Shown here one piece after another: positions 5,411-62,235 of a DNA stretch of 64,000 bases. This DNA is from Arenicola marina (lineage: Eukaryota; Annelida; Polychaeta; Arenicolidae). The notes beneath the pieces were generated by a model. It did no database searches. It had not been told where the DNA came from and saw only the letters and a program-made list of their open reading frames with translations. The first letter of the stretch is position 1. Every line of letters starts with the position of its first letter. The DNA lies in the NCBI GenBank assembly GCA_964019135.1, contig OZ025258.1, forward strand, positions 6,095,961 through 6,159,960, given 5' to 3'. A program made the position numbers and the translations under genes.

Positions 5411-7422
5411 ACGACTTCGAAAAAGCTTTTGATACGATAGATTGGGAGTACATATCCAAAACACTTGAGGTATATAATTTTGGTGAAAAATTTATACAAT
5501 GTTTTAAGCTTTTGTACACGGACGCTGAGAGCTGTGTGATAAATAACGGCCATTTTTCTAAATTTTTCGGGTTAGGTAGAGGATGTCGACAAGGGGACCC
5601 CTTATCCCCGTATATTTTTATACTTGCAGTTGAACCGCTTGCTGAGGAGTTAAGAAAAAACAAATTCATAGAGGGTATTGAAATAGGTGAAACCACAGTG
5701 CTACTCGGGCAATATGCTGACGACACTTTTTTATTGATGAAGGATGATGAAAGGTCGCTAACGGAAGCTTTAAAAACGTTTAGACTATTTTATTTGTGTT
5801 CCGGCTTGCGAATTAACATGGAAAAGACCCAAGCAGTTTGGCTGGGTAGTAAAAAACTTTCGCTGAAGCCGATTTGGTCCAAAATACCCAATTAAATGGG
5901 TTACTTCCTTCAGACTATTGGGTATAGAATTTGATGTTAACATGGAGCATATGTTAGAGAAAAACATAGAGGGCAAGCTGGGCGATATCAAAAAGACCTT
6001 GCGTCTTTATAAATCAAAAAGTTTATCCTTAATCGGCAAGGCTACGGTCATCAAAACGTTGGTAATTCCTAAGATTATACATATTTTTTCCGTACTCCCA
6101 TCGCAAGATGCTCTAATCACGCGCATGCAAAGGGAGATAGATAATTTTATGTGGGATGGGAAACGCTCTAAGATATCGAGGATGCAACTTGCACAGAAGT
6201 ATTCGGATGGGGGTATTCAACTAACATGCGTTTACCTTTTTATTAAAGCACTTCGTTTATCGTGGATAAAGCGACTGAAAACATCGGTCGGAAACTGGCA
6301 GAGTGTTGCAAAACATGCCTTAGGTGAAAAGAACAGCATTTTGTTATGGCAGTTAGATCCGAAGTCGTTAATCGCATTGTCTAAAAAAACATTCAGCAGC
6401 TTTTGGAAAATAATCATAAGTGACCGGGGAAAGTATAAACGACAAGACTACTTGTATGGTAACGAAATGAAGTATACCTTTTGAAATTCACAGTATCTTA
6501 GACATAGTAATATTATAGCCTTTAAGAATCATCTTGTTGCCAACAACTGTACTCTAATAATGGATTTGTTTGATGATCAGGGGAAACCTCTGACACAAGA
6601 GAGTTTCAATATGAGGTATAATATTAATTTAAACTTTTTGGATTATCAGTGCCTCAAGCAACAGGTCATCAGTCATTGGTGTAAACGTGATTGTTACCCA
6701 AAAGTGCCAACTGATAGAAACTTAGATATATGTGTGACAGAACTGATGGATGCGCAACGCTGCTGTAATTTTGCATATTGGAAGTTAGCAACGAAAGTCG
6801 AGTTAAATCAAGGGAGAAGAAATAAGTGAGAAGAAACCCTGCACGAGACAATAGATAACTTACTGTGGGAAAAGATCTACCTACTACCTTATAGAGTAAC
6901 TACTGAAACAAGGGCTAGAAGTTTCCAATATCGATTTTTGCAACGTATTTTACCTACAAATAAGTACCTGAAAATGTGTGGTATAGCTGAAAGCGAATTG
7001 TGTTATTTTTGCAGTTCTCACATAGAAACCATCGGGCATTTGTTCTGGCGCTGTAAACATGTAGAATAATTTTGGCAAAAGATTATCACAGTCCTACAGC
7101 CTGGGTTAGACTTTGACTTCAAATCTTTAATTACAGAAAAAAAATTCTTGCTGGGAGTCACTGAGAAAACAACAGCAGTAATAAACCACGTGATACTGTT
7201 AATTAAACAATATATTTACGCCACCAAATGTAAAAACGGAACTCTCAGTGTAGCAGGTGCCTTAAGCAAAATTAGACAAATATACATGATAGAAAATTGG
7301 TCAACTTGTGTGCAGAATTCTAACGCGAAATGGAGTAGTTTCATAGGGATTTTCAACCGCGTATGAGTTTCATGTATTGCATTGCCAGTTTTTCCTGAAA
7401 AAAAAATAAAAAAAAATAAAAA
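5411..7422 (+). mobile_element. L1/Tx1-like LINE, 5'-truncated, degenerate
   Basis: The fragment starts inside the reverse transcriptase at DFEKAFDTIDWEY. It shows GCRQGDPLSPYIF near 5581-5620, the catalytic QYADD near 5710-5725, a thumb/connection region (5918-6484) and a C-terminal zinc-knuckle-like CxxC...H...C (CYFCSSHIETIGHLFWRC, near 7003-7056). Part of the region is closed by frame changes and stops (for example between 5895 and 5918, and after 7065). It ends in an A-rich tail (7397-7420). A direct repeat tattctaag (5402-5410 and 7423-7431) fits a target-site duplication. It inserted into the gag fossil. It is not active. Confidence 0.85.
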
Positions 7423-8371: not shown

Positions 8372-8680
8372 ATCCCAGCAAACACCGAACGTTCAGCGAA
8401 CCGTTCGCTGGGGGTTATATTTTGGTTACGTTAGCGTTTAGCCTTCTGCGAACGTTCAATGAACGCTACGGCCTGATTCGGTTCGAGAGATACCTTCCGG
8501 GAACGTTCCTGGAATATTTAGATTTTAGTTCCCTCTGTTGAAAGCTACAGGGAACGTTCCCTAAACTGAAACACTGAGCGTAAAATTAACCGTTGATTAA
8601 TGGGATGTAAAGCTACCTTATGGGAACGTTCTCCGAACGGTCGTGCATATAGCTACCTTCCGGGAACGTTCCTCGAAGGG
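8372..8680. mobile_element. GAACGTTC palindrome-rich MITE-like element
   Basis: It begins cccagcaaacacc and repeats palindromes of the type GGGAACGTTCC and GCGAACGTTC at irregular spacing (for example near 8390, 8450, 8500, 8545, 8625 and 8660). A related copy at 22930-23138 ends in the complementary terminus ttagctggga. The element is non-coding. The repeated palindromes are presumably subterminal binding sites for a transposase. The superfamily is not identified. Confidence 0.55.
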
Positions 8681-16290: not shown

Positions 16291-16369
16291 CTGAACATTT
16301 TGCCGGATAAATTAATTGACCTTTTGCATAGTCAGATACAGTGCCCGTGCCTACTTTTCTATCTTGTGA

Positions 16370-18615
16370 GGTATCAAACATATCTGCCGTTTCTACAGTA
16401 TTTGCGAGGCATCAAATATCTGCCGTTTTTAGAGTACTTGTGATGTATTAAATATTTCTGCCCTTTTTACAGTACTTGTGATGTATTAAATATTTCTGCC
16501 GTTTCTACAGTACTTGTGATGTACCTAACTTGTCTGCACTTTGTAAGTACCTGAGGTACCAAATATGTCTGCAGTTTGTACAGTACTTGTGAGGTATCAA
16601 ATATTTTGCCGTTCTACGGTACTTGTGAGGTACCAAATATGTCTGCCGTTTCTACAGTGCTTGTGAGGTGTCAAATATATCAGCCGTTTTTACAGTACTT
16701 GTGATATATTAAATATTTCTGTCGTTTCTACAGTACTTGTGATGTACCAAACATGCCTGCAGTGTGTACACTACTTGTGAGGTACCAAATATTTCTGCAG
16801 TTTCTACAGTGAGGTACCAAATATGTCTGCAGTTTCTACAGTACTTCTGAGGTACCAAATATATCTTCAGTTTCTACAGTGCTTAGAAAGTATCAAATAT
16901 GACTGCAGTTTTCACAGTACTTGTGAGGTACCAAATATGTCTCCATATTTGGTACCTAACAAGTACTGTACAAACTGCAGACATGTTAGGTACATCACAA
17001 GTACTGTAGAAACTGCACACATGTTTGGTACCTCACAGGCACTGTAGAAACAACGGACATATTTGGTACCCCACAAGTACTGTAGAAACGGCAGAAATAT
17101 TTGACACCTCATAAGTACTGTAGAAACTCCAGACATATTTGGTACCTCACAAATGCTGCTCAAACTGCATATTTGGTGCCTTACAAGTACTGTGCAAACT
17201 GCAGACATATTTGGTACTTCACAAGTACTGTAAAAATTGCAAACATATTTGATACATTCTAAGCACTGTAGAAACTGCAGACATATTGGTACCTTACAAC
17301 TACTGTACAAACTGCAGACATATTTGGTACCTCACAAGTACTGTGCAAACTGCAAACATATTTGGTACCTCACAAATACTGTGAAAACTGCAGACATATT
17401 TGATGCCTTCTAAGCACTGTAGAAACTGCAGACATATTAGGTACCTCACAAGTACTGTACAAACTGCAGACATATTTGGTACCTCACAAGTACTGTAAAA
17501 ACTGCAAACATATTTGATACATTCTAAGCACTTTGGAAACTGCAGACATATTTGGTACCTTACAACTACTGTAGAAACTGCAGACATATTAGGTACCTCA
17601 CAAGTACTGTACAAACTGCAGACATATTTGGTACCTCACAAGTACTGTAAAAACTGCAAACATATTTGATACATTCTAAGCACTTTGGAAACTGCAGACA
17701 TATTTGGTACCTTACAACTACTGTACAAACTGCAGACATATTTGGTACCTCACAAGTACTGTGCAAACTGCAAACATATTTGGTACCTCACAAGTACTGT
17801 GAAAAATGCAGACATATTTGATGCTATCTAAGCACTGTAGAAAGTGCAGACATATTTGGTACCTCACAGGTACTGTACAAACTGCATACATATCTGGCAC
17901 CTCACAAGTACTGTAGAAACAGCGAACATATTTGGTACCTCACAAGTACTGTAGAACGGCAAAAATATTTGATACCTCACAAGTACTGTACAAACTGCAG
18001 ACATACTTGGTATCTCACAAGTACTGTAAACACGGCTGACATATTTGATACCCCACAAGTACTGTAGAAACGGCAGACATCTTAGGTACATCACAAGTAC
18101 TGTAGAAACGGCAGAAATGTTTAATACATCACAAGTACTGTAAAAACGGCAGAAATATATGTCTGCCGTTTGTACAGTACTTGTGAGGTACCAAATATGT
18201 CTGCAGTTTGTACAGTATTTGTGAGGTACCAAATATGTCTGAAGTTACTATAGTACTTAGGAGGTATCAAATATGTCTGCAGTTTCTATAGTACTTGGGA
18301 AGTATCAAATATGTCTGCAGTTTCGACAGTACTTGTGAGGTACCAAATATGTCTGCCGTTTCTACATTACTTGTGAGGTACCAGATATGTCTGCAGTTTG
18401 TACAGTGCCTGTGAGGTACCAATGTGTCTGCCGTTTCTGCAGTACTTGTGAGGCACCAAATATGTCTGCAGTTTCTACAGTACTTGTGAGGTACCAAATA
18501 CGTCCGCAGTTTGCATAGTACTTGTGAGGTACCAAATATGTCTGAAGTTACTATAGTACTTAGGAGGTATCAAATATGTCTGCAGTTTCTATGGTACTTG
18601 GGAGGTATCAAATAT
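16370..18615. repeat. 38-bp minisatellite with an inverted central block
   Basis: The unit is 38 bp: acctcacaagtactgtac followed by aaactgcagacatatttggt. From 16370 to about 16937 and from about 18160 to 18615 the units run in one orientation. From about 16945 to 18155 they run in the other. The switch points are palindromes (ccaaatatgtct/ccatatttgg and agaaatatatgtctgcc). Inside the inverted block a 152-bp (4 x 38) higher-order repeat can be seen (17491 versus 17643). The 60-130-residue frames on this array are by-products. Confidence 0.9.
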
Positions 18616-18917
18616 GTATGCTTAAAGAATACGCCGTTCGCACAGTTAAATACAATACCCGTGGTTTTATTGTATCGAACTGCCATAATGTACAGAAGAA
18701 CACTGTATGTCGCAACGCAAAAGGTCTGGTAATTTATCTGGCAGTGGGTTGCCTTTGTGTTAAAATGCAGAAGGTCATGTACATATCTAGGCCCTATCAT
18801 ATATTTACCTCACAAGTTCGTTTTAGAAACCGCTGTAATGGGCACTTACGAGGTACTGTTTGTACCTCACAAGGGCGCCTTCACAAGTTAGGGTTGTAGC
18901 CGTCGCAATCTTGTGTC

Positions 18918-23333: not shown

Positions 23334-23660
23334 TTGACGGGCATGCGCTTCCATAGACATAAGGCACGACGGAAGGATTATCGTGTCGGATACCCCATGG
23401 ACAGAGTGGCTATTGACATACTCGGTCCGTTTCCAGTGTCAGATAACGACAATCGCTTCGCTCTCGTTGTCGGTGATATTACTTCACAAAGTGGATGGAA
23501 CATTACGCGCTACCATATTCCACGGCGGCCACAGTGGCCGGGAAGCTGGTTTACGACTTCTTCCCAAGTTTTGGGGTCTCCCCTCGAAATTCATTCAGAT
23601 GTTCACAAGTGACAATCAGAAAGACTGGGGTGAGCAATTGCCCTTTTTAAAATAATTTTT
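23334..23660 (+). mobile_element. Fossil Ty3/gypsy-like integrase fragment
   Basis: The translated motif GYPMDRVAIDILGPFPVS, followed by NRFALVVGD, matches the start of the integrase catalytic core of metazoan Ty3/gypsy (Mag-like) LTR retrotransposons; the D of the first motif residue is visible. Only about 0.3 kb is recognisable, no LTRs are seen nearby, and the copy is broken. It is probably an old fragment unrelated to the gag fossil at 3256. Confidence 0.75.
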
Positions 23661-35882: not shown

Positions 35883-36094
35883 CTACTGAGCCCCATCTGA
35901 CCAGTGAGGGAGACCCAGCTGCTTGCGCCACTCCGCCATCTGGTCCAGGGACACGCAGGCTCCGCCGCACACTATGACCACAACACGCTCCAGTTTTCCA
36001 AGAGTGCCTTGCGTTTGCAACTGTTGGATGACCTTGGCGTAGACGGCCGTCATGGCTGCGCCACAGGCGGGTTCCACCAAGATCCGCTCGTCAT
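35883..36094 (-). CDS. SDS: SDS exon 7 (residues 256-325, stop)
   Basis: The acceptor is ctggctttag at 36095-36104. An ATG lies just upstream in the same frame, but the family alignment (SFL-DDERILVEP) sets the splice site here, where it restores phase. It encodes DDERILVEPACGAAM and VVVIVCGGACVSL and ends at TAG. Confidence 0.92.
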
Positions 36095-39000
36095 CTAAAG
36101 CCAGTACGCGACACATATACTATCAGGTAAAGTAATATATCAATACCAAGTCAAGTTATGCATAAACTTTCGAGTATGCAATCATTGAGCAAGGAAGTTG
36201 TAGGCATTTAGTCACTACTAACGCGTAAACAATTGTTAGATGCCTGTAGACAACGCTGAGCGATGGGCACTGACCGAAGAAGCTGTAACAGGCCTCTAGA
36301 CAACGCTGACCGATGGGCACGGACATTAGAAGCTGTAGCAGGCATCTAGACAACGCTGACCGATGGGTACTGACCTAAGAAGCTGTAGCAGGCCTCTATA
36401 CAACGCTGACCGATTGGTACTGACCGAAGAAGCTGTATCAGGCCTCTAGACAACGTTGACCGATGATTACTACCATAAGAAGCTGTAGCAGGTCTCCAGA
36501 CAATGCTGACCGATGGGCACTGACCGAAGAAGCTGTATCAGGCCTCTAGACAACGTTGACCGATGATTACTACCATAAGAAGCTGTAACAGGCCTCTATA
36601 CAACGATGACCGATGGGTACTGACCTAAGAAGCTGTAGCAGGCCTCTAGACAACGATGACCGATGGGTACTGACCGAAGAATCTGTGACAGGCCTCTAGA
36701 CAACGCTGACTGATAGGCACGGACATTAGAAGCTGTAGCAGGCATCTAGACAACGCTGACCGATTGGTACTGACCGAAGAAGCTGTAACAGGCCTCTAGA
36801 CAACGTTGACCGATGATTACTACCATAAGAAGCTGTAGCAGGCCTCTAGACAACGCTGACCGATGGGCACTGACCTAAGAAGCTGTATCAGGCCTCTAGA
36901 CAACGTTGACCGATGATTACTACCATAAGAAGCTGTAGCAGGCATCTATACAACGCTTACCGATGGGTACTGACCTAAGAAGCTGTAGCAGGCCTCTAGA
37001 CAACGCTGACCGATTGGTACTGACCGAAGAAGCTGTATCAGGCCTCTAGACAACGTTGACCAATGATTACTACCATAAGAAGCTGTAGCAGGTCTCTAGA
37101 CAATGCTGACCGATGGGTACTGACCGAAGAAGCTGTATCAGGCCTCTAGACAACGTTGACCGATGATTACTACCATAAGAAGCTGTAGCAGGTCTCTAGA
37201 CAATGCTGACCGATAAGCACTGACCGAAGAAGCTGTATCAGGCCTCTAGACAACGTTGACCGATGACTACTACCATAAGAAGCTGTAGCAGGTCTCTAGA
37301 CAATGCTGACCGATGGGCACTGACCGAAGAAGCTGTATCAGGCCTCTAGACAACGTTGACCGATGATTACTACCATAAGAAGCTGTAGCAGGCCTCTAGA
37401 CAACGCTGAATGATGGGTACTGACCTGAGAAGCTGTAGCAGGCATCTAGACAACGCTGACCGATGGGTACTGACCTAAGAAGCTGTAGCAGGCATCTAGA
37501 CAACGCTGACCGATGGGCGCTGCCATTAGAAGCTGTAGCAGGCCTCTAGACAACGGTGACCGATGGGCGCTGCCATTAGAAGCTGTAGCAGGCCTCTAGT
37601 CAACGCTCACAGATGGGTACTGACCTAACAAGCTGTAGCAGGCCTCTATACAACGTTGACCGATGGGCACTGACATTAGAAGCTCTAGCAGGCCTCTAGA
37701 CAACGCTGACCGATGGGTACTGACCGAAGAAGCTGTATCAGGCCTCTAGACAACGTTGACCGATGATTACTACCATAAAAAGCCGTAGCAGGCCTCTAGG
37801 CAACGCAGAATGATGGGCACTGACATTAGAAGCTGTAGCAGGTCTCTAGACAACGCTGACCGATGGGCACTGACATTAGAAGCTGTAGCAGGCCTCTAGA
37901 AAACGCTGACCGATGGGTAATGACCGAAGAAGCTGTAACAGGCCTCTAGACAACGCTGACCGATGGGCACTGACCTAAGAAGCTGTATCAGGCCTCTAGA
38001 CAACGCTGAATGATGGGTACTGACCTGAGAAGCTGTATCAGGCATCTAGACAACGACCGATGGGTACTGACATTAGAAGCTGTAGCAGGCCTCTAGACAA
38101 CGCTGACCGATGGGTACTGACCTAAGAAGCTGTAGCAGGCATCTAGACAACGCTGACCGATGGGTACCGACCTAAGAAGCTGTAGCAGGCATCTAGACAA
38201 CGCTGACCGATGGGCGCTGACATTAGAAGCTGTAGCAGGCCTCTAGACAACGCTGACCGATGGGTACTGACCTGAGAAGCTGTAGCAGGCATCTAGACAA
38301 CGCTGACCGATGGGTACCGACCTAAGAAGCTGTAGCAGGCTTCTAGACAACGCTGACCGATGGGTACTGACCTGAGAAGCTGTAGCAGGCATCTAGACAA
38401 CGCTGACCGATGGGTACTGACCTAAGAAGCTGTAGCAGGCTTCTAGACAACGCTGACCGATGGGTACCGACCTAAGAAGCTGTAGCAGGCTTCTAGACAA
38501 CGCTGACCGATGGGTACTGACCTAAGAAGCTGTATCAGCCATCTAGACAACGCTGACCGATGGGCGCTGACATTAGAAGCTGTAGCAGGCCTCTAGACAA
38601 CGATGACCGATGGGTACTGACCTAAGAAGCTGTAGCAGGCTTCTAGACAACGCTGACCGATGGGTACCGACCTAAGAAGCTGTAGCAGGCTTCTAGACAA
38701 CGCTGACCGATGGGTACTGACCTAAGAAGCTGTATCAGCCATCTAGACAACGCTGACCGATGGGCGCTGACATTAGAAGCTGTAGCAGGCTTCTAGACAA
38801 CGATGACCGATGGGTACTGACCTAAGAAGCTGTAGCAGGCTTCTAGACAACGCTGACCGATGGGTACTGACCTAAGAAGCTGTAGCAGGCTTCTAGACAA
38901 CGCTGACCGATGGGTACTGACCTGAGAAGCTGTAGCAGGCATCTAGACAACGCTGACCGATGGGTACTGACCTAAGAAGCTGTATCAGCCATCTAGACAA

Positions 39001-42000
39001 CGCTGACCGATGGGCGCTGACATTAGAAGCTGTAGCAGGCCTCTAGACAACGATGACCGATGGGTACTGACCTAAGAAGCTGTAGCAGGCATCTAGACAA
39101 CGCTGACCGATGGGCACGGACATTAGAAGCTGTAGCAGGCCTCTAGACAACGCTGACCGATGGGTACTGACCTAAGAAACTGTAGCAGGCCTCTAGAAAA
39201 CGCTGACCGATGGGTACTGGCCTAAGAAGTTGCAGCAGGCTTCTAGACAACGCTGACCGATGGGTACCGACCTAAAAAGCTGTAGCAGGCCTCTAGACAA
39301 CGATGACCGATGGGTACTGACCTAAGAAGCTGTAGCAGGTCTCTAGACAACGCTGACCGATGGGCACTGACATTAGAAGCTGTAGCAGGCCTCTAGAAAA
39401 CGCTGACCGATGGGTAATGACCGAAGAAGCTGTAACAGGCCTCTAGACAACGCTGACCGATGGGCACTGACCTAAGAAGCTGTATCAGGCCTCTAGACAA
39501 CGCTGACCGATGGGCACTGACCTGAGAAGCTGTATCAGGCATCTAGACAACGACCGATGGGTACTGACATTAGAAGCTGTAGCAGGCCTCTAGTCAACGC
39601 TGACCGATGGGTACTGACCTGAGAAGCTGTAGCAGGCATCTAGACAACGCTGACCGATGGGTACCGACCTAAGAAGCTGTAGCAGGCATCTAGACAACGC
39701 TGACCGATGGGTACTGACCTAAGAAGCTGTAGCAGGCATCTAGACAACGATGACCGATGGGTACCGACCTAAGAAGCTGTAGCAGGCATCTAGACAACGA
39801 TGACCGATGGGTACTGACCTAAGACGCTGTATCAGCCATCTAGACAACGCTGACCGATGGGCGCTGACATTAGAAGCTGTAGCAGGCCTCTAGACAACGC
39901 TGACCGATGGGTACTGACCTAAGAAACTGTAGCAGGCCTCTAGAAAACGCTGACCGATGGGTACTGGCCTAAGAAGTTGCAGCAGGCTTCTAGACAACGC
40001 TGACCGATGGGTACCGACCTAAAAAGCTGTAGCAGGCCTCTAGACAACGATGACCGATGGGCGCTGACATTAGAAGCTGTAGCAGGCATCTAGACAACGC
40101 TGACCGATGGGTACTGACCTACGAAGCTGTATCAGCCATCTAGACAACGCTGACCGATGGGTACCGACCTAAGAAGCTGTAGCAGGCATCTAGACAACGC
40201 TGACCGATGGGTACTGACCTAAGACGCTGTATCAGCCATCTAGACAACGCTGACCGATGGGCGCTGACATTAGAAGCTGTAGCAGGCTTCTAGACAACGC
40301 TGACCGATGGGTACTGACCTAAGACGCTGTATCAGCCATCTAGACAACGCTGACCGATGGGCGCTGACATTAGAAGCTGTAGCAGGCTTCTAGACAACGC
40401 TGACCGATGGGTACTGACCTAAGACGCTGTATCAGCCATCTAGACAACGCTGACCGATGGGTACTGACATTAGAAGCTGTAGCAGGCCTCTAGTCAACGC
40501 TGACCGATGGGTACTGACCTAAGAAGCTGTAGCAGGCTTCTATACAACGCTGACCGATGGGTACTGACCTAAGACGCTGTATCAGCCATCTAGACAACGC
40601 TGACCGATGGGCGCTGACATTAGAAGCTGTAGCAGGCCTCTAGACAACGATGACCGATGGGTACTGACCTAAGAAGCTGTAGCAGGCATCTAGACAACGC
40701 TGACCGATGGGCACGGACATTAGAAGCTGTAGCAGGCATCTAGACAACGCTGACCGATGGGTACTGACCTAAGAAACTGTAGCAGGCCTCTAGAAAACGC
40801 TGACCGATGGGTACTGACCTAAGAAGCTGTAGCAGGCTTCTAGACAACGCTGACCGATGGGTACCGACCTAAGAAGCTGTAGCAGGCTTCTAGACAACGC
40901 TGACCGATGGGTACTGACCTAAGAAGCTGTATCAGCCATCTAGACAACGCTGACCGATGGGCGCTGACATTAGAAGCTGTAGCAGGCCTCTAGACAACGA
41001 TGACCGATGGGTACTGACCTAAGAAGCTGTAGCAGGCTTCTAGACAACGCTGACCGATGGGTACTGACCTAAGAAGCTGTAGCAGGCTTCTAGACAACGC
41101 TGACCGATGGGTACTGACCTGAGAAGCTGTAGCAGGCATCTAGACAACGCTGACCGATGGGTACTGACCTAAGAAGCTGTATCAGCCATCTAGACAACGC
41201 TGACCGATGGGCGCTGACATTAGAAGCTGTAGCAGGCCTCTAGACAACGATGACCGATGGGTACTGACCTAAGAAGCTGTATCAGGCATCTAGACAACGA
41301 CCGATGGGTACTGACATTAGAAGCTGTAGCAGGCCTCTAGTCAACGCTGACCGATGGGTACTGACCTGAGAAGCTGTAGCAGGCATCTAGACAACGCTGA
41401 CCGATGGGTACCGACCTAAGAAGCTGTAGCAGGCATCTAGACAACGCTGACCGATGGGTACTGACCTAAGAAGCTGTAGCAGGCATCTAGACAACGATGA
41501 CCGATGGGTACCGACCTAAGAAGCTGTAGCAGGCATCTAGACAACGATGACCGATGGGTACTGACCTAAGACGCTGTATCAGCCATCTAGACAACGCTGA
41601 CCGATGGGCGCTGACATTAGAAGCTGTAGCAGGCCTCTAGACAACGCTGACCGATGGGTACTGACCTAAGAAGCTGTAGCAGGCTTCTAGACAACGCTGA
41701 CCGATGGGTACTGACCTAAGAGGCTGTAGCAGGCATCTAGACAACGCTGACCGATGGGCGCTGACATTAGAAGCTGTAGCAGGCATCTAGACAACGCTGA
41801 CCGATGGGTACTGACCTAAGAAGCTGTAGCAGGCCTCTAGACAACGATGACCGATGGGTACTGACCTAAGAAGCTGTAGCAGGCATCTAGACAACGCTGA
41901 CCGATGGGCACGGACATTAGAAGCTGTAGCAGGCCTCTAGACAACGCTGACCGATGGGTACTGACCTAAGAAACTGTAGCAGGCCTCTAGAAAACGCTGA

Positions 42001-45000
42001 CCGATGGGTACTGGCCTAAGAAGTTGCAGCAGGCTTCTAGACAACGCTGACCGATGGGTACCGACCTAAAAAGCTGTAGCAGGCCTCTAGACAACGATGA
42101 CCGATGGGTACTGACCTAAGAAGCTGTAGCAGGCCTCTAGAAAACGCTGACCGATGGGTACTGACCTAAGAAGTTGTAGCAGGCTTCTAGACAACGCTGA
42201 CCGATGGGTACTGACCTAAGAAGCTGTAGCAGGCCTCTAGACAACGATGACCGATTGGTACTGACCGAAGAAGCTGTATCAGGCCTCTAGACAACGTTGA
42301 CCGATGATTACTGACCTAAGAAGTTGTAGCAGGCTTCCAGACAACGCTGACCGATGGGTACTGACCTAAGAAGCTGTAGCAGCCATCTAGACAACGCTGA
42401 CCGATGGGTACTGACCTAAGAAGCTGTAGCAGCCATCTAGACAACGCTGACCGATGGGTACTGACCTAAGAAGCTGTAGCAGGCCTCCAGACACTGCTGG
42501 TCGGTGATGACTTGAGATATGATAGGTCTCTCCTTGTAATATTGCAGAGAACGCTCAGCCACCGTCAGAGCCCCAAGACACTTGGCAATGCTGTCAGCAG
42601 TATTAAAAACCAATAGAATATAATTTCATTTCAATTATTTAAAACTGGCGTGGCCTTGCAAAAGACGAGACGGACGGTAAGACAGACGAACACGTGGATT
42701 CAGAAACGTGACTTTGCAATCCGTCTACAGAAACGAAAGATCCAGCTTGCCTGACCTTTAACAATTCCATGTAATAATTTCGATGCAATTAAAGGTAAGA
42801 AAGGTAAATGCGGATTTTATATGGTGTCGGCCTTAGTTGTAGGTATGGGTATCTGACCTGTAGCTGTAGGGTGTCTGACCTGTGTCTGTAGGGTGTCTGA
42901 CCTGTAGCTGTAGGGTGTCTGACCTGTAATTGTAGGGTGTCTGACCTGTAGCTGTAGGGTGTCTGACCTGTAATTGTAGGGTGTCTGACCTGTAGCTGTA
43001 GGCTGTCTGACCTATAGCTGTAGGCTGTCTGACCTGTAATTGTAGGGTGTTTAACCCATAGCTGTAGGGTGTCTGACCTGTAGCTGTAGGGTGTCTGACC
43101 TGTAATTGTAGGCTGTTTGACCTATTGCGGTAGGGTTCTGACCTGTAGCTGTAGGGTGCCTGACCTGTAACTGTAGGGTGCCTGACCTGTAACTGTAGGG
43201 TGTCTGACCTGTAGCTGTAGGGTGTCTGACCTGTAGCTGTAGGGTGTCTGACCTGTAGCTGTAGGGCGTGACTTGTAGCTGTAGGGTGTCTGACCTGTGT
43301 CTGTAGGGTGTCTGACATATAGCTCTAGGGTGTCTGACCTGTAACTGTAGGGTGTCTGACCTGTAACTGTAGGGCATCTGACCTATAGCTGTAGGGTGTC
43401 TGACCTGTAACTGTAGTGTCTGACCTGTCGCTTTAGGGTGTCTGATTGGTAACCGTGAGGTGTCTGACCTGTAGCAATGGGTAGTAGTCACTGACCTGGT
43501 GATGTCGGGCAATGTGACCAGTCTACCTGCCCGGACCGCCTGATTGTAGGAGTCCGCGCCCGCCGTCTCCATGGCAAGGATGGGTACGGTTTGCCAGCCG
43601 ACCCGCGCCATACCCTGCACCACCCCACACAACAGTCCCCCGCCACCCACTGCCACCACCACCAGGTCCGGGGTGGCACCCTCCAGCTGGACAGACACCT
43701 CCTCCATCATAGAGGCGTGACCCTCCCTGCAACAGACAACAGGTAGTGAGTGCAGTTGTAAAACGTAATCCGGTACAAACGGATTCAGATCGGTAGCTCT
43801 TAAACTTCTAGAGTTTAAGTCAACCAGTTGTTTCCGAAAACTGATTTCAGTTTTACACATACTGTGTACTCCGTGGCACAGCGCATTCGGCTACTGGCGA
43901 GTGAGCCCTCTAGACCAGCCCAAGCCAACCCCACTTGTGTAAAAGTCTATGCTTGGGCAGCATAAAAAGCGTGTGTCTCCCCGTTAGTAGGGGCTTACTC
44001 CCAGCGGGCTAGCTCCTCTCTAACTTGACTATTTTCCACTGTCCCGATATGACAAATGTGACAGCAATAGGCTATCAATACTTTGGACGGGAGACTGCGA
44101 CTGCTAGTAGTGTCGTGTGTATGTGTAGGAGTGTCCGCTCATTAGCATATCGTGGTGTTGTCCACCTATGATTATCAGTTATTTTAGAGGAGTGGTGTTT
44201 GTGTCATGTGTTTGTCCTGTCTGTCCAATCGTCTTGTCCGGATTAGCGTTTTGTGGCCCACCCCAATTAGGGAAGCCCAATAAAAGCAGGCTCGATGCCC
44301 ATGTGTGTGGCATTGTCCGGGTCGTCCCAACACGGGACCAACCTCTGGGGCTGGATGCGGCGGAAGGTATGTCTGTTGTTGCGTATAAGTTGTGTATGAA
44401 TGTGTGTATGAATGTTGTGCTGTCTTTGTATAATTAGATATGTGTATATCTCAACACGAGATGTGTTTAACATGTATCTTTTCTGTCCTAGTCCACTATG
44501 TATGTTTTCGTCTATACAATTTAATAAAATATACGAATGTAGAACCTATACGTCTTATAATTACCGTCAAACTTGGAGCCCGACGTGACACTACTAGCAG
44601 TCGCAGTCTCCCGTCAAAAGTATTGATAGCCTTTTGCTGTCACACATACAAAGGTTAAATTGCCCTACTTAAACCAACCAGTAACACATACAGTATTATT
44701 TCTAAAACGGCTTACCATACGTCCGGGTCGTCAAACGGATGAAGGTACACGTGGCCTGCAATGCACACGATGATCCAATGTTGACAATATTGAAAATACA
44801 AATTTTTAATTCCACCATCCTTGATTACAGGACATTGATCAATGCACATTTTGGCCATGTTGAGTGGGCTACTGATTACTTCCTGTTTAATGATCCAGTT
44901 ATTGGGGTCAGTGAAGGCACATTTTTGTATAATAATTTATGGCAACAAATATGATTCTTTTTGCCTTGCAAGAGTATAATAATGTGATTAAAGACTAAGG

Positions 45001-48175: not shown

Positions 48176-49654
48176 CTATGCCTGCTGATGCCGTCCCCAC
48201 CCTGGTCGGGGGCGGGGGCAGGTGCCATCCCGACCCTGGCTATGCCTGCTGATGCCATACCCACCCTGGCAATGCCTGCTAATGCCATCCCCACCCTGCC
48301 CATGCCTGCTGATGCCATCCCCACCCTGGCCATGCCTGCTGATACCATCCCGACCCTGGCCATGTCTGCTGATGCCATCACCACCCCGGCAATGCCTGCT
48401 GATGCCATCCCCACCCTGGCAATGCCTGCTAATGCCATCCTCACCCTGCCCATGCCTGCTGATGCCATCCCCACCCTGGCCATGCCTGCTGATGCCATCT
48501 CCACCCTGGCCATGCCTGCTGATGCCATCCCCACCCTGGCCATGCCTGCTGATGCCATCCCCAACCTGGCCATGCCTGCTAATGCCATCCCCACCCTGCC
48601 CATGCCTGCTGATGCCATCCACACCCTGGCCATGCCTGCTGATGCCATCCCCAACCTGGCCATGCCTGCTGATGCCATCCCCACCCTGGCCATGCCTGCT
48701 GATGCCATCCCCACGCCGGCCATGCCTGCTGATGCCCTCCCCACCCTGGCCATGCCTGCTGATACCATCCCCACCCTGGCCATGCCTGCTGATGCCATCC
48801 CCAACCTGGCCATGCCTGCTGATACCATTCCCACCCTGGCCATGCCTGCTGATGCCATCCCCACCCTGGCCATGCCTGCTGATGCCATCCCCACGCCGGC
48901 CATGCCTGCTGATGCCATCCCCACCCTGGCCATGCCTGCTGATGCCATCCCCACCCTGGCCATGCCTGCTGATGCCATCCCCACCCTGGCCATGCCTGCT
49001 AATGCCATCCCCACCCTGCCCATGCCTGCTGATGCCATCCCCACCCTGGCCATGCCTGCTGATGCCATCCTCAACCTGGCCATGCCTGCTGATGCCATCC
49101 CCACCCTGGCCATGCCTGTTGATGCCATCCCCACCCTGGCCATGCCTGCTAATGCCATCCCGACCCTGGCCATGCCTGCTGATGCCATCCCCACCCTGAC
49201 CATGCCTGCTGATGCCGCCCCCACCCTGGCCATGCCTGCTGATGCCATCCCCAACCGGGCCATGCCTGCTGATGCCATCCCCACCCTGGCCATGCTTGCT
49301 GATGCCATCCCCACCCTGGCCATGCCTGCTAATGCCATCCCGACCCTGGCCATGCCTGCTGATGCCATCCCCACCCTGGCCATGCCTGCTAATGCCATCC
49401 CCACCCTGCCCATGCCTGTTGATGCCAGCCCCAACCTGGCCATGCCTGCTGATGCCATCCCCACGCCGGCCATGCCTGCTGATGCCATCCGCACGCCCGC
49501 TATGCCTGCTGATGCCATCCCCACCCTGGCCATGCCTGCTGATGCCATCTCCACCCTGGCCATGCCTGCTGATGCCATCTCCACCCTGGCCATGCCTGCT
49601 GATGCCATCACCACCCCGGCCATGTCTGCTGATGCCATCCCCACCCTACCTTAG
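48176..49654. repeat. 30-bp minisatellite, 47 units without indels
   Basis: The unit is catgcctgctgatgccatcc followed by ccaccctggc. From 48241 to 49650 every unit is exactly 30 bp; differences are substitutions only. Because 30 is a multiple of 3, long frames open on both strands (505 residues of MPADAIPTLA type plus; 544 of GMASAGMARV type minus), and other frames stay open too. A start, a promoter or splice signals for a gene are not evident. I treat it as a minisatellite about 1.9 kb upstream of the SDS start. Confidence 0.9.
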
Positions 49655-60723: not shown

Positions 60724-62235
60724 TCGTTTCGAGTTTAAAACCTGAATCAGCGTATGTATACCTATGTAGACCCATCGCATAACGGCATTATGAGCCGCAT
60801 AGATCACGTGTTAGTGGCCAGTAAAATGAAAACTCAACTCGGTGACTGTGTGATCAAGCTTGCTCCGACACCCGATCACAAAGGTGTAGTGACCACTCTA
60901 AATCTAGGGACTGAGAATCGTGGTAAGGGATACTGGAAACTCAACTGTATTTTTCTGCCTTGATTATGTTCAAAATATGACAAAGAAACGCTTTATAGGA
61001 TATAACATAACAATGGTGCAAGACGTCATCGACTATTTAGAAGAAAAACGTGAAAGGGGCTATGTCCTCTCCTTAGATTTCAAAAAGGCTTTTGACTCTT
61101 TGGAATGAAACTTTATGTTAAAATCGTTGGAAAAGTTTAATTTTGGTCCAAATTTTGTCAAGGCGATAAGTACGATATATAAAAAACCTGTTATGCAAGT
61201 AAAGAATAACGGGTACCTATCAGAATCGTTCGATATGTCGCGCGGTATACGCCAAGGTTGTCCACTGTCAGCCTTTTGACTCTTTGGAATGAAACTTTAT
61301 GTTAAAATCGTTGGAAAAGTTTAATTTTGGTCCAAATTTTGTCAAGGCGATAAGTACGATATATGAAAAACCTGTTATGCAAGTAAAGAATAACGGGTAC
61401 CTATCAGAATCGTTCGATATGTCGCGCGGTATACGCCAAGGTTGTCCACTGTCAGCCTTTTGACTCTTTGGAATGAAACTTTATGTTAAAATCGTTGGAA
61501 AAGTTTAATTTTGGTCCAAATTTTGTCAAGGCGATAAGTACGATATATGAAAAACCTGTTATGCAAGTAAAGAATAACGGGTACCTATCAGAATCGTTCG
61601 ATATGTCGCGCGGTATACGCCAAGGTTGTCCACTGTCAGCCCTACTGTTCATATATTATCACTTGAAATGATGTCCTTGTCACTAAAACAGGAAGTGACG
61701 GGTGTAACCATAACATATATAAACGAAAGCCGAAATGTTATACTCAGTCAGTATGCAGATGATTGCATTGTCTTCATACAAGATGAGCAAGAGATTCCCC
61801 GCCTCCTGTCAAGTATGGAGAGGTTCGGGGACGTTGCTGGTTTACGTCTAAACATCGATAAGACGATCGGGATTTGTGTAGGACAGGTAACCAGTCAATC
61901 CATAATCAGCGGTATACGGTTCACAAACGAACCGCTAAAATGTCTGGGTATCTTTGTAGGCCAAGATCATTAAAAATGTACAAATTGGGAAAGCAAATTG
62001 AAAGCAATCGATAAAGAAACGAGAACGTCAAGCGTAGCTTGAGAAGGAAGGGAGACGAAAATCTGGGGATAAGTGCAACTGGAATATATATAGCGAGTGC
62101 CGACTATGTACATGCATTACTGACAGAGTATAGGCCGAAATGTCCGCGCGCCGTGAGTCATTTGGCGTATCGAAGCTTTATAATGGGATCGGCCATGTTA
62201 AATGTCTTTGTTTTTTTGCGTGCAAGCACTGGTCT
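60724..62235 (+). mobile_element. L1-like LINE with internal deletion and triplication
   Basis: The first part (60754-60963) is the end of an AP endonuclease: SRIDHVLVASKM, PTPDHKGVVTTL and GKGYWKLN. The next (60960-61108) jumps into the reverse transcriptase (DYLEEKRERGYVLSLDFKKA), so about 300 residues between the two domains are missing. A 184-bp block is then triplicated. The catalytic SQYADDCIVF lies at 61741-61775 and LNIDKTIG follows. The C-terminal part is missing after about 62235. The element is dead. Clade assignment (L1/Tx1 group) rests on motif resemblance. Confidence 0.8.
61089..61640 (+). repeat. 184-bp tandem triplication inside the LINE
   Basis: cttttgactctttggaatga recurs at 61089, 61273 and 61457. 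Copies differ by one base that I can see (tatataaaaaacc versus tatatgaaaaacc). The join has gtcagcc/ttttgac with short homology to ggcttttgac. 184 is not a multiple of 3, so the frame is destroyed. Confidence 0.92.

Follow-up and report, generated by a model that had tools for sequence, protein, structure and literature searches.

We analyzed a 64,000-nucleotide stretch of the genome of the annelid Arenicola marina (contig OZ025258.1, positions 6,095,961 to 6,159,960; hereafter the window, whose numbering is used unless a locus is named), which carries a serine dehydratase (SDS) gene on its minus strand. About 6.2 kb of the 6371-bp intron 6 of this gene is a single array of 50-bp units, in which the end of exon 6 and the 5′ splice donor that follows it are copied together. 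A preliminary description of this DNA had proposed that the intron is made of ~124 copies of its own donor; the observation was confirmed at its core, with three corrections to the first account. We consider it quite probable that the array is a minisatellite of the type called mirages in amphioxus (the term, used in the preliminary description, is indeed in print, in the available text of PMC3087553 and PMC3902484), which would have arisen by duplication of the junction, grown, and been tolerated through use of the donor nearest the exon. Nor is it an isolated case: nine other donors in the genome pass the same junction-copy test.

The intron 6 array

The gene model gives a complete SDS gene of seven exons with GT/AG introns, encoding 327 amino acids with zero internal stops. 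The best relatives of the protein in PDB are L-serine dehydratases (E about 1e-105). The joint between exons 6 and 7 (...CYSFL-DDERILVEPACG) aligns collinearly with 120 SDS homologues, of which the first 60 were displayed row by row, so the exon 6 junction was not invented by the repeat. The features of the locus, as given by the gene model unless another source is named, are as follows (in motifs, the slash marks the exon-intron boundary; TRF, Tandem Repeats Finder).

46310-46164, 45983-45831, 45457-45382 and 44755-44716, minus strand: SDS exons 1-4
43496..43726, minus strand: SDS exon 5
42591..43495, minus strand: SDS intron 5, donor CAG/GTCAGT, which houses a donor-bearing array
42847..43475, minus strand: 22-bp x 28.8 array in intron 5, starting ~20 nt past the donor (TRF)
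42466..42590, minus strand: SDS exon 6, end TTCTTAG, phase 1; the exonic edge of the intron 6 array takes up its last 28 nt (gene model, TRF edge at 42493, homologue alignment)
36095..42465, minus strand: SDS intron 6, 6371 bp, donor TAG/GTCAGT, acceptor GGCTTTAG
36242..42493, minus strand: probable mirage minisatellite, 50 bp x ~125, the unit made of ~28 nt of exon 6 end and ~22 nt of intron start (TRF, unit-by-unit reading)
36275..37974, minus strand: distal part of the array, units 91-124, with AG/GT in 7/34 and lower within-block identity (unit alignment)
35883..36094, minus strand: SDS exon 7 with stop codon

TRF assigned the array a period of 50 and 125.2 copies between 36242 and 42493, with 28 nt of exon 6 inside it. 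Read unit by unit from the donor, it comprises 124 full units (121 of 50 bp and three of 47 bp) and one truncated unit, which agrees with the copy number first put forward and with the view that the unit is the end of exon 6 plus its donor. The claim of 20 exact exon bases holds for the consensus, an exact match to the last 22 bases of exon 6 plus the donor, and not for every copy: the first unit matches over 17 bases before a mismatch, and only six of the 124 junctions are identical to the real one over positions -20 to +10. There are 66 distinct sequences among the 124 units, with a mean pairwise identity of 0.889. Runs of identical consecutive units recur at fixed distances (seven at a lag of 35 units, five at 56 and five at 44), and within-block identity is 0.90-0.91 in units 1-80 vs. 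0.85-0.88 in units 81-124. The array thus shows four features of a mirage: an intragenic tandem of short units, a unit lying across an exon-intron boundary, AG/GT in many but not all units (71/124), and block-wise turnover (lags 35, 44 and 56).

The other end of the intron does not take part in the array. The intron 6 acceptor (36095) lies 147 bp outside it and is not a copy of the unit. We applied a junction-copy test, in which 20 bases around a splice junction (-10 to +10) are sought with up to five mismatches in the next or previous 1 kb, or in the shorter flank available; it found zero copies of the intron 6 acceptor junction in the previous 1 kb and was likewise negative for the donors of SDS introns 1-4. 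Genome-wide (assembly of 867 Mb in 762 contigs), all 63 matches listed for the exon 6 junction sit at the SDS locus; since the search scored one candidate region and skipped very common words, a distant copy may still exist.

The neighboring intron 5 has an array of its own. AGGTCAG, the core of the intron 5 donor, occurs 25 times in the intron, 20 of these as CAG/GTCAGA, and the chance of finding a given 7-mer in a random 22-bp unit is 0.0013. The overlap of this array with exon 5 is weak, and the intron 5 donor is therefore negative in the strict junction-copy test; we call the array donor-bearing rather than a proven mirage.

Copied donors and their decay

Many of the copies would be credible donors. 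GT is retained in 110 of the 124 copied junctions, AG/GT in 71, and the exact 9-mer of the real donor, TAG/GTCAGT, in 49; nine more carry CAG/GTCAGT, which scores above the real donor. Altogether, 58/124 decoys equal or exceed the real donor on a donor matrix which, like the acceptor matrix and the U1 5′ end used here, is an approximation. Within 4 kb of the exon, 40/80 junctions have the 9-mer and 56/80 have AG/GT, so that the statement that most units there keep ttag/gtcagt was too strong, while its substance, that many decoys near the exon match the real donor in sequence, stands. Use of a decoy (computed for 1, 2, 5 and 49 units) would retain in the message the in-frame TAG that the first unit carries, yielding a 266-aa protein ending GQYPSVSVV. 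The truncation foreseen in the preliminary description is thus borne out, as is the TAG itself, which follows nine codons rather than ten.

Copied donors are fewer far from the exon: AG/GT is found in 64/90 of the proximal junctions (1-90) vs. 7/34 of the distal ones (91-124). Donor score, when plotted against distance from exon 6, falls (Spearman -0.25, P 0.006, 124 junctions), and U1 pairing energy also changes with distance (rho 0.19, P 0.04). The distal loss noticed at the outset is real, and the broken forms named then are all present (TCGGTCAGT, TATGGTAGT and AATGTCCGT, with 11, 9 and 5 copies, respectively); other lost-donor forms (AATGTCAGC, 13 copies, and AATGTCAGT, 8) occur among proximal units too.

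One explanation for this decay, relaxed constraint being the other, is that the array is mildly burdensome and that unit variants with a broken donor have been favored. Consistent with this idea, no other 9-column window of the unit is as variable as the nine donor columns (rank 1 of 50; 13.0% vs. 5.4% non-consensus; permutation P 0.04, for units related by block copying and a test picked after inspection of the data), their non-consensus alleles are commoner (Mann-Whitney P 0.004), and they take more parsimony steps per column (2.9 vs. 1.9 elsewhere, P 0.048). The donor has also been lost in several different ways, and the proximal-distal difference in AG/GT goes in the same direction. This variability hints at selection against decoys. 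On the other hand, alleles are common to units through block duplication, preservation is best in the decoys nearest the exon, where harm should be greatest, and nine decoys outscore the real donor. We do not claim selection, because the units are not independent, being linked by block copying, and the choice of test was post hoc; it is a possibility that we hold only tentatively.

Donor-bearing arrays elsewhere in the genome

In the junction-copy test, 10/42 donors were positive vs. 0/26 acceptors, in mixed sets for which several loci had been selected for tandem donors or long open frames; the donor positions were judged by eye from where the domain matches end, and that of locus L046 was set one base early. 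The nine positive donors other than that of SDS intron 6 are spread over eight loci (a chloride channel, a WASH complex subunit, three donors in myosins, ALDH1L, a tubulin ligase and two open reading frames (ORFs)), and in seven of the nine the exon is homologous to known proteins. Five candidate acceptor-type array edges were also seen, in six rows.

A random sample of twenty 10-kb pieces (L012-L031), taken at fixed positions on contigs C1-C10, was annotated only through a scan of its arrays for donors. Mirages with a homologous exon were present in two of the twenty pieces. The mirage in L028 (71 bp x 32) follows a chloride-channel exon (Pfam 1.7e-6; PDB CLC-a, 2e-8); beyond the 71-bp array, which is at 98%, the junction recurs in degenerate 33-bp copies deeper in the intron, near the next acceptor. 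The mirage in L013 (70 bp x 14) follows an exon of WASH complex subunit 7 (Pfam 5.7e-9), for which a PDB match was not found. At 2-482 and 5668-5857 on the minus strand of L028 there are also a further 17-bp array, which starts directly at a later donor (GTAGGTCTGCC), and, ahead of an acceptor, degenerate copies of the junction in the 71-bp mirage.

Among 22 donors chosen without regard to repeats, one (L049) proved to be a strict mirage. These comprised three PALP loci (L033-L035), a myosin locus picked for its many exon matches in 10 kb (L036), and the best-ranked ten other myosin donors of 77 matches (L044-L053), each covered by only about 200 nt of intron. L036 has one more donor-bearing array, whose overlap with the exon is 4 nt, and in L046 an array begins at the donor without copying the donor's GT. 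A further myosin gene (L032) has two mirages, in a choice biased toward matches with very long open frames. On the minus strand of the same locus, at 8414-8649, a myosin array has a 37-bp unit with both an acceptor (poly-C, CACAG) and a donor (CAG/GTACGT); a 12-nt micro-exon-like stretch lies between the two signals, and the mini-introns are about 25 nt. Several short myosin exon matches (e.g. C1:64332097, C7:32812561 and C20:12500527, of which the C7 gene was retrieved) fall within open frames longer than 1000 aa, possibly a sign of adjoining arrays.

Three copies of AGGTAAGT at 20-50-base spacing were found at 7362 places, vs. 2773 for the reversed motif, and three copies of AGGTCAGT at 23381 vs. 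10075 places. Such places should not be equated with arrays: the 100 that head the listing reduce to seven arrays in 11.1 Mb of C1 for AGGTAAGT and to six arrays in 19.0 Mb for its reverse. In four of the seven, an exon-like ORF stops exactly at the first donor. Two of these four are homologous to known proteins (ALDH1L, PDB 2e-25, and tubulin-tyrosine ligase, Pfam 6e-15), and the other two have the ORF alone, with no Pfam match. If this density held, the genome would have about 300 arrays of this narrow class, an extrapolation from seven. The exact AGGTAAGT motif and spacing is absent from all six strict mirages that came to light by other routes, so the total may exceed ~300. The ALDH1L mirage (L037, from about locus position 984) has a 39-bp unit which is stop-free in the exon frame across the three units read; use of a decoy there would thus add 13-aa repeats and not truncate the protein.

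These arrays lie in a genome rich in tandem repeats. TRF arrays make up 40.8% of the bases of the 200-kb random sample and 36.7% of the window, and three of the 10-kb pieces (L016, L018 and L026) are wholly array from end to end.

Origin of the array and related systems

The most likely account of the intron 6 array begins with the tandem duplication of a segment across the exon 6/intron 6 junction. Growth to about 124 units would have followed by unequal exchange or slippage in blocks, a mechanism suggested by the block repeats that we see. Selection on the protein, to which the intact ORF points, would fix the exon copy, with the result that the array expands solely into the intron. Finally, the spliceosome would pair the exon 6 acceptor with the exon-proximal donor by exon definition; we invoke this choice because 58/124 decoys at least equal the real donor by sequence, and the array would be tolerated because the exon-proximal donor is used. 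More generally, arrays that start by chance across 5′ splice junctions may persist in a genome of this kind, since the first donor still yields normal mRNA, and 5′ but not 3′ junction duplications would be tolerated. The array edge 28 nt inside exon 6 and an ORF that is intact despite strong decoys both argue for a mirage.

Several results weigh against this account or limit its reach. Use of the first donor at exon 6 is something that we infer from sequence. Similarity of the units to the last 22 bases of exon 6 does not change with distance (rho 0.03), while that on the intron side does (rho 0.29). Among 60 non-redundant arrays from the random sample and the window, the donor motif is not significantly enriched (score of at least 5: five observed vs. 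2.8 +/- 1.6 in shuffled sequence; score of at least 8: zero vs. 0.2), and most tandem repeats here are therefore not donor-derived. Of the seven tandem-AGGTAAGT arrays, two have no exon found in their flanks, and one, whose flank lies entirely within the array, is undecided. The rate of strict mirages among unselected donors (1/22) is very uncertain, and the contrast between donors and acceptors is an unfair count, because of the way that loci were selected and because amphioxus mirages occur at both boundaries.

A different possibility is that the units act as recursive splice sites, an AG acceptor abutting a GT donor, such that the intron would be removed stepwise and the exon 6 junction re-formed at each step. 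AG ends 74/124 units, and by the approximate 3′ splice-site matrix 68 of the 74 equal or outscore the weak acceptor of intron 6 itself. Ratchet points likewise place an acceptor and a donor side by side within an intron (available text of PMC8605326). The SDS units differ from them in their weak acceptor context and in being arrayed by copying of an exon end, and are known here from sequence alone. Moreover, the median unit acceptor reaches only the 88th percentile of 3953 background AGs, its pyrimidine run is short, and a competing ACAG lies 8 nt upstream. Recursive splicing is accordingly unlikely in our view. We give equally little credence to a broader proposal, in which 5′ splice junctions genome-wide would be minisatellite nurseries, their arrays harmless because recursive AG/GT units always restore the authentic junction, and introns would lengthen without limit and later release exons or introns.

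That the copy number is an assembly artefact is very unlikely: long arrays are difficult to assemble and a single assembly was used, but the 66 distinct sequences among 124 units stand in ordered blocks, unlike simple read error. Insertion of an unrelated satellite or mobile element, with a chance match to exon 6, might be entertained in a genome with about 41% tandem repeat in 200 kb, but we reject it as having next to no probability, given that the consensus exactly equals the last 22 exon bases plus donor, that the unit was found at the SDS locus and nowhere else among the matches listed, and that the same junction-centered design recurs at nine further donors, in eight loci.

The mirage that we favor has close counterparts in amphioxus, where mirages are described in Adh and in the globins BflGb6 and BflGb9, as well as in TnC and PGBD5 (as cited in PMC3902484). 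As far as the accessible text of PMC3087553 and PMC3902484 goes, mRNA splicing is reported to be normal there, and the SDS array shares with these cases a boundary-spanning minisatellite unit, AG/GT in many but not all units, and block-wise turnover. Copy number differs (124 vs. 6 and 3 in two BflGb6 haplotypes in the accessible part of PMC3087553), as do the annelid host, the presence of donor-bearing arrays in two adjacent SDS introns and the nine other donors in the genome. Furthermore, both intron boundaries are involved in amphioxus according to the same sources, whereas only 5′ boundaries were found in the annelid. The link to amphioxus implied by the preliminary description does not extend to the host: with TGA read as sense, mitochondrial COX1 from a 15,942-bp contig ranks highest with polychaete annelids among 8000 candidates scored (Pilargis wolfi, a member of the Phyllodocida, 91%; Namalycastis, 90%; Saccocirridae, 87%), and the SDS protein is 60% identical to that of Capitella and only 59% identical to that of Branchiostoma belcheri. 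Literature searches for mirages, for minisatellites that span a junction and for those of annelids or polychaetes, in which subscription papers were mostly beyond reach, listed no report of a mirage, under that name, outside cephalochordates; the first-intron minisatellites of earthworm metallothionein are given no splice-junction origin in the available text of PMC12783039.

Two further systems are related. Rogers-type tandem duplication of AGGT, a route to intron gain, likewise supplies splice signals across AG/GT (accessible text of PMC4974935; discussed in PMC3087553). There, donor and acceptor both come from one copied segment; the acceptor of intron 6, by contrast, lies beyond the array and does not copy its unit, and the array therefore lengthened the intron and did not supply both of its ends. 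Variable internal tandem repeats at exon-intron boundaries of human segmental duplicates are also minisatellites at exon edges that alter gene structure, with about four 30-bp units, and are tied to new introns in recent paralogues (PMC2812944, from its accessible part); SDS instead has a fixed junction with a long array behind it.

The data suggest that mirages are not an amphioxus oddity, since they occur in an annelid, in several genes, in a genome where tandem repeats take up about two fifths of the random sample. Work on splice-site choice usually relies on competing donors that are engineered, one or a few at a time. An intact SDS gene in which the real donor is followed by dozens of near-identical ones is a natural test of splice-signal choice and of intron growth; with such a decoy series in an intact gene, a first-donor rule would be readable from ordinary RNA-seq. 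The idea that introns are lengthened, and perhaps created, by arrays of this kind also becomes testable genome-wide.

Three other repeats were seen in the window. At 48223-49647 on the minus strand, about 1.9 kb upstream of the SDS start codon, a 30-bp x 47 array lies within two long stop-free frames (546 and 489 aa). Three abutting blocks of one 38-bp repeat family occupy 16363-18621, the middle block (16944-18158) being inverted. Finally, a 184-bp unit is present three times at 61089-61641 with 99% identity, and is apparently recent.

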